Positions 9,617 through 50,203 of a DNA stretch of 64,000 bases are shown here, piece after piece. The stretch comes from Bacteroidales bacterium (lineage in GTDB: Bacteria; Bacteroidota; Bacteroidia; Bacteroidales; P3). Where the stretch lies: NCBI GenBank assembly GCA_016283175.1, contig JAEEMK010000038.1:1-64000 (forward strand), given 5' to 3'. Every line of letters begins with the position of its first letter. Position 1 is the stretch's first letter. The translations under genes and the position numbers were made by a program. The notes beneath the pieces are model-generated. The model saw nothing but the letters and a program-made list of their open reading frames with translations, searched no databases and was not told the origin of the DNA.

Positions 9617-9726
9617 GTATACTTTCCCTGGCATATGTACAGTATATGTACAGTATTTGTACGCTTCTAAAGCGTACAAATACTGTACATATACTGTACA
9701 AATACTGTACATATGCCAGGGAAAAC
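9617..9726. repeat. palindromic TGTACA-array element, copy 1
   Basis: GTATACTTTCCCTGGCATATGTACAGTATATGTACAGTATTTGTACGCTT-CTA-AAGCGTACAAATACTGTACATATACTGTACAAATACTGTACATATGCCAGGGAAAA; 11-bp units, right arm has one more unit than left. Confidence 0.95.
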
Positions 9727-9881
9727 AGGGGGGAGGAACGTTGAACCAGGCTGCCACACACAAGGCTTCTCCACGCGCTCCACAGGAGCTTGTGACATAT
9801 GCCAGGGAAAACAGGGGAGAGGAACGTTCAACCGGGCTGCCACGCTCAAGGCTTCTCCACGCGCTCCACAGGAGCTTGTGA
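9710..9881. repeat. 86-bp tandem duplication (two near-identical units)
   Basis: Units 9710-9795 and 9796-9881, both starting CATATGCCAGGGAAAACAGGG and ending CCACAGGAGCTTGTGA; a third start CATATGCC follows at 9882. Confidence 0.95.
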
Positions 9882-9993
9882 CATATGCCTATGCTGGTGG
9901 CAGGAAAGGCTGTGCAAGATGTATAATATTTTTTCGCGTGGAACCATAATAAATCTGACGTTTGGCAGTTATCAATAGTAAAAACAGACTACT

Positions 9994-22243: not shown

Positions 22244-22315
22244 CTAGTCTATCTAGAGATTCTAGAAATTCTAGAAATTCTAGAAACTCTAGAAATTCTA
22301 GTCAATCTAGTCAAA
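22244..22315. repeat. 9-bp tandem array with invariant CTAG (8 units)
   Basis: CTAG at 22244, 22253, 22262, 22271, 22280, 22289, 22298, 22307. Confidence 0.95.
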
Positions 22316-25007: not shown

Positions 25008-25325
25008 TGTAATTGAATTTTGATTAATAAAAAATTTTCTTCATTTACAGCCACAAACCTCTTGTTTTCAGAACAGTTATCATTCTTAAACAACAGATAT
25101 GCGGTATTATTATTCGGATGCAAATTTACCACAAAAAACAATACTGGCAAAAAAAAATTAAATATTTTTGTTTTTTTAAGAGTTTCCCGGCCTCAGCGGA
25201 GTCCATCCGCAGAGCCACAGATTATGGGCTTTAGGGGGCATTTCCCGCCTGCAATGCCCTAACAGGAAGCTGCAAAGCGACAATTCGGCATTCCACACCC
25301 CTGCAGAAAAAAGGGTTCTGCATAG

Positions 25326-25436
25326 GCATATGTACAGTATATGTACAGTATTTGTACAGTATATGTACGCTTACGAAGCGTACAAATACTGTACATATAC
25401 TGTACATATACTGTACATATGCCAGGGAATGTATAC
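25326..25436. repeat. palindromic TGTACA-array element, copy 2
   Basis: GCATATGTACAGTATATGTACAGTATTTGTACAGTATATGTACGCTT-ACG-AAGCGTACAAATACTGTACATATACTGTACATATACTGTACATATGCCAGGGAATGTATAC; six TGTACA. Confidence 0.95.
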
Positions 25437-35462: not shown

Positions 35463-36377
35463 ATGAACACCACCGACATACACTTTGCCTCGAACAAGGT
35501 GAGAGACATAGAACGCCTCTTCAAAACCGAACTGGCGTCACTCTACCCTGACGGCGAAACACGTATGTTCGTCCGAATGCTGTTCGAGGCCTATCTGGGC
35601 TGGAGTTATGCCGACCTGCTCACACATCGCGACGAGACAGTCGACCAGTCTGATTTGCTGCGTTTCCACTGGGCCTTGCAGGATTTGAAACGACACCGCC
35701 CCATACAGCACATCATCGGCTGGACCGACTTCTGCGGCTGTCGCATCAGCGTAAACGAGAACACACTGATACCCAGACCAGAAACCGAAGAAATAGTCAA
35801 CTGGACCATCAACCACATTTCAAAATTCAAAATTCAAAATTCAAAATTCAAAGCCCTCGACCTCTGCACCGGCAGCGGCTGCATAGCCATAGCACTCGCA
35901 AAGCAATGGCCCGAGGCAGAAGTGACGGCAGTGGACATCTCCGAGAAGGCACTCAACATCGCTAAACACAATGCCGAGGCCAACAACGTTGAAATCAACT
36001 TCCTCCAAGCCGACATCCTCTCACAATTCAAAATTCGATATTCAAAATTCGATATTCAAAATTCGATATTCAAAATTATAATTAGCAATCCGCCATACGT
36101 GATGGAAAAGGAGCGTTCCGCTATGCAGCCAAACGTTCTCGACTGGGAACCATCCAACGCACTTTTCGTGCCCGACGCCGACCCGCTGCTTTTCTACCGC
36201 GCCATCGCCGAATTTGCGACAAAGCACCTTGCCACAGACGGAATGCTCGTACTAGAAATCAACGAAACGCTGGGACAGGATACGCTGCACCTGTTCGAAA
36301 AAAGCGGCTTCACGGGGGACATCCACAGCGACTTCCACGGCAAGGCCCGTATGATAAGCCTGCATTTCCAATCCTGA
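35463..36377 (+). CDS. prmC: peptide chain release factor N5-glutamine methyltransferase with two repeat-encoded insertions
   Basis: LIPRPETEEIV, DLCTGSGCIAIALAK, IISNPPYVMEKER. Confidence 0.93.
   Translation: MNTTDIHFASNKVRDIERLFKTELASLYPDGETRMFVRMLFEAYLGWSYADLLTHRDETVDQSDLLRFHWALQDLKRHRPIQHIIGWTDFCGCRISVNENTLIPRPETEEIVNWTINHISKFKIQNSKFKALDLCTGSGCIAIALAKQWPEAEVTAVDISEKALNIAKHNAEANNVEINFLQADILSQFKIRYSKFDIQNSIFKIIISNPPYVMEKERSAMQPNVLDWEPSNALFVPDADPLLFYRAIAEFATKHLATDGMLVLEINETLGQDTLHLFEKSGFTGDIHSDFHGKARMISLHFQS
35819..35852. repeat. 7-bp minisatellite TTCAAAA x ~4.9 inside prmC
   Basis: Direct reading; encodes SKFKIQNSKFK just before DLCTGSG. Confidence 0.95.
36027..36078. repeat. 14-bp minisatellite TTCAAAATTCGATA x ~3.6 inside prmC
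   Basis: Units at 36027, 36041, 36055, partial at 36069; encodes QFKIRYSKFDIQNSIFKI just before ISNPPYV. Confidence 0.95.
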
Positions 36378-48300: not shown

Positions 48301-48640
48301 TTGAAATAAAAAACCTAAAAATAATTAACAGATATAACTTTGAGACCATTTTCACGCCCTAAACAAATTTTCTTGCTATCTTTGCAAAATGCTGTTGCAT
48401 TATGATGTTGAGTCTACAGTTCAGAATGGTGATACATTGTGAAATAACGACGGTATAAGGATACGCAAGGAGTGGTTTTGGGCTACGCAGTGCGACACAC
48501 TATAATAGCGACGATGATGTGTGTCGTAGCGATAAGGCAGCTTTTGAGGGCTTCTGACTATAAACCAATACATTGTGGCGGTTGGTGTTTCAAGGTGTGT
48601 TTTATTGTGCAAAAAAGGTACATAGCATATACCAGCAAAG

Positions 48641-48746
48641 GCATTTGTACAGTACTTGTACAGTATATGTACAGTATATGTACGCTTTAGAAGCGTACAT
48701 ATACTGTACAAGTACTGTACATATACTGTACATATGACAGGGAATG
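48641..48746. repeat. palindromic TGTACA-array element, copy 3
   Basis: GCATTTGTACAGTACTTGTACAGTATATGTACAGTATATGTACGCTT-TAG-AAGCGTACATATACTGTACAAGTACTGTACATATACTGTACATATGACAGGGAATG; six TGTACA. Confidence 0.95.
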
Positions 48747-50134: not shown

Positions 50135-50203
50135 CATTTGTAGCACAAAACAAACGAGGAGGCTCTGAACGGAGCCTCCTCGTTTGTTTTGTGCTACAAA
50201 TGC
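50134..50203. terminator. bidirectional terminator: 32-bp perfect inverted repeat with 6-nt loop
   Basis: GCATTTGTAGCACAAAACAAACGAGGAGGCTC-TGAACG-GAGCCTCCTCGTTTGTTTTGTGCTACAAATGC. Confidence 0.9.

Follow-up and report, generated by a model that had tools for sequence, protein, structure and literature searches.

Dispersed palindromic arrays of phased 11-bp units in a Bacteroidales genome: a proposed MITE/REPIN-like element with a possibly architectural role

Palindromes that are dispersed over bacterial chromosomes are usually viewed as short parasites that are placed randomly. REP/REPIN/BIME palindromes are known to bind proteins, and parC-type centromeres carry 11-bp repeats that are bound by ParR. 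REPs are described as 20-40 bp long with GTAG/CGTC tags (PMC3733652), and REP/REPIN/BIME and MITE repeats are the closest kinds to the element described here (PMC3733652, PMC2817692, PMC3116915). We show here that the MAG of a gut Bacteroidales bacterium (G000; 2.25 Mb, 111 contigs) carries at least 97 copies of a palindromic array, 91 strict cores and at least six partial copies. Three of these lie in the 64,000-nt stretch of DNA that was analysed as a whole and is called the window below. Our favoured reading, which we hold tentatively, is that of a MITE/REPIN-like, gene-free dispersed element with a selected, probably architectural and putatively protein-binding array.

The array studied here spans window positions 9623-9724. 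Its 11-bp units, of which the left arm has two and the right arm three, form a palindrome that is nearly perfect (all features are unstranded). A preliminary description of positions 9617-9726 proved accurate for the sequence, the 11-bp repeats on both arms, the near-perfect hairpin with its CTA loop and the extra unit in the right arm. The arms pair over 40 nt at 95% and over 34 nt at 97% complementarity. The left end box TTTCCCTGGCATATG (9623-9637) recurs in inverted copies at 9710-9724 and 9796-9810. It is followed by the left arm with two TGTACAGTATN units plus the GTAC of the core (9635-9662), the core GTACGCTT-CTA-AAGCGTAC (9659-9677) with the 3-nt loop CTA at 9667-9669, the right arm with three mirrored 11-bp units (9674-9711) and the right end box ACATATGCCAGGGAAA (9709-9724), and the whole is bounded by CATATGCCAGGGAAA in inverted copies. 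An 86-bp tail repeat runs on in about two tandem copies (9709-9889), each with the inverted repeat CACAAG..CTCC / GGAGCTTGTG inside and CATATGCC at its end; in the examined sequence of the same genome this tail is confined to array flanks. The gene upstream encodes an Exo_endo_phos protein and the gene downstream is rpoN, confirmed as sigma-54. Array neighbours in the window are rpoN, exo/endo, TPR, oxidoreductase and thioredoxin-like genes.

As single-stranded DNA the studied array folds with z = -17, and its RNA folds reach about -69 kcal/mol on both strands. Such folds would suit a long transcript hairpin that acts in mRNA stability, processing or attenuation. Rfam, however, returned only generic microRNA hairpins below threshold, no family reaching its gathering score, and half of the classified copies have divergent genes on their two sides, so that no mRNA 3' end lies there on either strand. 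A terminator-like T-tract is also absent. A structured RNA, which had been offered earlier as one of three readings, is therefore in our view the least probable of the explanations considered. The accompanying statement that the array is no simple terminator stands: the locus has no terminator-like sites, and only 3 of 68 copies are placed between convergent genes. Short tandem repeats of several periods are frequent across these genomes, and the window holds 7- and 14-bp repeats at 2324-2357, 35819-35852 and 36026-36077. A 9-bp TCTAGAAAT array at 22251-22310 lies directly before a terminator-like hairpin between convergent genes. At 50140-50196, again between convergent genes, a long GC-containing hairpin (AGCACAAAACAAACGAGGAGGCTC...) is probably an ordinary bidirectional terminator.

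Within the window, TGTACAGTAT occurs 15 times, against 0.09 expected from shuffles, at three places (9.6, 25.3 and 48.7 kb). The second copy (25325-25430; 3+3 units, loop ACG) has divergent genes on either side. The third (48640-48745; 3+3 units, loop TAG) belongs to a subfamily with about 95 bp of imperfect, diverged inverted arms on each side. In the standard form, a GTACGCTT-NNN-AAGCGTAC core has three 11-bp units on one side and three in mirror image on the other, with GTAC-to-GTAC steps of 11-11-11-15-11-11-11. Exactly 3+3 units are present in 61 of 68 parsed copies, so the studied 2+3 copy is a minority form, and the earlier suggestion that unit number varies is correct only in part. The end boxes are more variable than the preliminary description suggests (CCAGGGAA, CCTATGCTGGT and others). 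Loops of 3 nt differ as well, with CTA/TAG in 31 and CAG/CTG in 27 of the 68 parsed copies. The variable bases of the two arms match within a copy above shuffling (for example 0.95 against 0.64 in the outer unit); the arms are unequal in 19 of 58 copies. As in MITEs, the end boxes are inverted copies, that is, terminal inverted repeats, and no called gene lies inside the arrays (genes were called with a purpose-made codon-based caller). Because end boxes and flanks are repeated, the element was evidently copied around the genome. A TCAGTNCTTTACAAGG-like motif on the A side was considered as an independent target motif; its matches away from arrays are at chance level, so it belongs to the element itself.

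The geometry recurs within one genus, whose related species build it from other units: TGTACAATATN, TTGTCCGCTTG, TTGTCCAGTYG, TTCTTATATCG and TTGTTCTTTCA. The 3-core-3 layout with different units occurs in G002, G104, G118, G135, G136 and G183. Only 10 of the 120 genomes examined in the genus fit a general GTAC-array pattern. Each has a dominant unit of its own, for example TGTACAATATN in G002 and G183, TGTACGGTAT/TGTACGCTAT in G104 and G136, and TGTACGATAST in G118. Several unit families may coexist in one genome: a further family, of the TTCTTATATCG type, is present in G104 and G136, and a TTGTTCTTTCA family in G118. When about 800 kb of contiguous sequence from G002 was scanned for palindromes with 44-bp arms at 80% or more, only 11-bp arrays came up. 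At least three families are found there (GTACAATA; GTCCGCTT; GTCCAGTY with a GTCCGATT variant), and they share the 3-core-3 plan and the outer end box ACCAACWCYGG. Scans for long palindromic arrays were negative for G151, G128 and G123 (100 kb per genome) and for G045, G141 and G166 (60-80 kb per genome). G154 is counted among the array-bearing genomes, and G167, like G151 and G128, among the array-free close relatives. Given these six sampled relatives and the 10 of 120 matching genomes, any function of the array would be dispensable. A TGTMC pattern reached high copy numbers in this genus only, among 394 genomes of the order. G135 (L416, L401), a distant relative whose rpoN is 47% identical, has TGTACAGTAST arrays, possibly by horizontal transfer or MAG contamination. 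In Flavobacterium, arrays of GGTACAAATAA or a close variant adjoin mnmE or dnaK (L175, L200, L207), and one such array adjoins an integrase gene.

Several dedicated partners were considered. Linkage to RAYT genes, one of the possibilities in the preliminary description, fails: no array stands within about 1.5 kb of a PF01797 locus, G136 is array-bearing but lacks a PF01797 match, and G151 and G128 have PF01797 while no arrays were found. The REP/REPIN palindrome itself, 20-40 bp with a GTAG or CGTC tag, differs from an array of about 95 bp that ends in ACATATG/ACAACG plus end boxes and has no constant tag. A dedicated tyrosine integrase, the recombinase side of the same proposal, is likewise disfavoured by only two PF00589 genes in the genome, both Xer-like, while arrays stand at about 97 other places. 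In G002 no gene repeatedly adjoins the arrays, and neither arrays split around a gene nor half-arrays flanking a gene were found. Replication iterons or a parC centromere in the strict sense are not supported, since initiator or ParR/ParM genes are not among the array neighbours in the window and there is no recurrent neighbour gene. A derivative of iterons could still be imagined, with the arrays serving as captured sites, or as decoys, for initiators of phages or plasmids whose targets are 11-bp GTNC iterons. Viral TTGTCCNNTNG 11-bp direct arrays are indeed located within genes that look like phage replication initiators and give weak winged-helix/RepL/Phage_rep_O matches, and some viral TGTACNNTANN arrays adjoin primase-like genes. 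This resemblance is selected, because the viral scan patterns were derived from the units of the own genome. Moreover, the viral arrays are direct and not palindromic, blastn against 50,697 phage and 72,556 plasmid records gave no relatives, and the spacing described below would be left unexplained. We regard such an origin as very unlikely. Among the viral contigs, L356, L361, L378, L384 and others have TTGTCC 11-bp direct-repeat arrays in phage replication-initiator-like genes.

The arrays are intergenic. Among 68 classified copies of the own genome, 36 are divergent, 29 tandem, three convergent and none inside genes; in G002, 22 of 52 divergent, 13 of 353 tandem and 3 of 53 convergent gaps hold an array. 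Positions are partly conserved. G002 has an array in 8 of 13 orthologous gaps with a G000 array and in 1 of 16 without (Fisher p=0.003), and two of the eight conserved gaps contain the GTCC family in G002 where G000 has GTAC. When only gaps of at least 150 bp in both genomes are compared (6/11 against 1/4), the excess is not significant with these numbers, and a preference of both genomes for long divergent gaps may account for part of the position conservation. At the site of the studied array, upstream of rpoN, G002 likewise carries one, from the GTCCGCTTG family; where the sequence was checked, in G104, G167, G154 and G151, this site has none. Downstream of xerC-hpf, GTAC arrays are present in G000, G104 and G183 and a TTCTTATATCG array in G136. 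The xerC-hpf neighbourhood was rejected as a source of the cognate gene, as xerC is also found in array-free relatives. For this reason, and because three species have the array downstream of hpf, we read it as a conserved site.

A further property of the arrays is their regular distance. In the own genome the 40 within-contig spacings range from 7.6 to 46 kb, and none of 36 testable spacings is below 7 kb, where 14 would be expected at random placement. The F1 family of G002 alone gives 44 spacings with a minimum of 8.3 kb. Across all three families on contigs C1 and C3 (620 kb), 38 arrays give 36 spacings with a mean of 15.2 kb and a minimum of 6.4 kb, and neighbours from different unit families are likewise kept apart. 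In the strongest null, which drew an equal number of gaps per orientation, length-weighted, in 3000 draws, about 9 of 36 spacings below 6 kb were expected and none observed; no simulation reached the observed minimum (P<1/3000). Other tandem repeats on the same contigs behaved as random (14 of 37 spacings below 6 kb, 11.6 expected). We read the spacing as maintained by selection or by insertion immunity, between which spacing by itself cannot discriminate.

Immunity would be the natural explanation for a purely selfish, MITE-like element without host function, in which the arms would resemble transposon ends with arrayed transposase sites, and an element, once bound, would keep new insertions several kilobases away. 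Target immunity of this kind is known from Mu and Tn7. Several observations speak for it: exclusion in G002 has a hard limit, with stretches in which arrays follow one another densely at 7.5-13 kb; many unrelated sites, and different unit families too, carry the same end boxes and flanking modules; the distribution across the genus is patchy; and the dominant unit is private to each genome. However, exclusion also operates between families of different unit sequence, and conserved positions with a changed unit family are unlike blocking by a resident element. Furthermore, neither clean target-site duplications nor clean empty sites came to light in the comparison of G002 with G183, which yielded shared sites or rearranged loci only, and, as described above, G002 has neither a gene recurrently beside the arrays nor half-arrays flanking one. 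We consider a purely selfish element possible, though on the unlikely side.

Exclusion that is independent of family would also follow if the structure itself mattered. In the highly negatively supercoiled DNA that separates divergent promoters, cruciforms or hairpins might be extruded, and close pairs might be lost through supercoiling competition or because two neighbouring breaks of the SbcCD type could not both be mended. Cleavage of palindromes by SbcCD is known in E. coli (PMC3315005). The preference for divergent gaps, the within-copy agreement of the arms and the very stable hairpins (DNA z -12.5 to -17) fit this idea. Selection for pairing alone, in contrast, needs neither an 11-bp period nor fixed 3+3 units, many F1 copies of G002 with eroded outer ends still follow the spacing, and the unequal arms in a third of the copies scored (19/58) do not fit either. 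Structure as the sole explanation thus appears improbable.

Of the three readings offered earlier, the phased binding array remains the best fit, because the geometry is conserved while the unit sequences change between families and species. An 11-bp period, a 15-bp core step and dyad symmetry are expected of several protomers that sit on one DNA face, mirrored about the centre. Since copying accounts for the repeated end boxes and flanks but not for cross-family spacing and recurring positions, we argue that more than copying is involved and favour the dispersed element with a selected array. Its working part would be the array, in which each arm has three 11-bp sites that contain GTNC; the layout is dyad-symmetric, with the arms head to head across the 19-bp core and all sites on the same helix face. 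We infer that an oligomerising DNA-binding protein coats both arms and that the resulting complexes may serve as chromosome-wide punctuation, marking boundaries, topological or regulatory, that often separate divergent transcription units, while selection would keep the arrays intergenic and several kilobases apart. The search for a cognate protein found none, which counts against this explanation. A more far-reaching version, which we regard as doubtful, is a hitherto undescribed bacterial chromosome-organising system. Arrays would stand at intervals of about 15 kb and never come closer than about 6 kb, a fast-evolving family of DNA-binding proteins would read them, and their sequences would be exchanged across the genome at unchanged sites and in unchanged geometry.

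How does this element compare with the known systems? Like REP/REPIN/BIME repeats, the arrays are short intergenic palindromes in about 100 copies per genome, without a gene inside, that form composite mosaics with other repeats. In contrast to REPs, their palindrome measures about 95-120 bp and is made of phased 11-bp sub-repeats, and they combine a lack of Y1 transposase linkage with a multi-kilobase exclusion distance. With MITE, ERIC, RUP and Correia elements they share the character of non-autonomous, intergenic, dispersed inverted-repeat elements. They differ by an internal phased array, by unit families that are swapped within the same end boxes and by over-dispersed spacing, and no parent transposase was found in searches that covered PF01797, PF00589 and the genes adjoining arrays. 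The arm-type sites of tyrosine integrases (lambda, Tn916-like) are also short helix-phased repeats near attachment sites, and the 11-bp array next to an integrase in Flavobacterium recalls them, but about 97 palindromic chromosomal copies in a genome with XerC/XerD-like recombinases only are a different situation. Iterons and parC offer 11-bp phased repeats for an oligomerising DNA-binding protein, which is putative for the arrays; the arrays, however, are dispersed chromosome-wide with head-to-head arms and no partition or replication gene adjacent. In the literature searched we found no description of 11-bp phased palindromic arrays in Bacteroidales, nor of a phased internal array, family turnover within one geometry or an exclusion distance. 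Compared with the usual picture of randomly placed parasites, this family maintains a strict geometry despite changing sequence, and its copies avoid one another across unrelated sequence families. Thus, it represents either a new architectural element of the chromosome or a mobile element with multi-kilobase exclusion across families.
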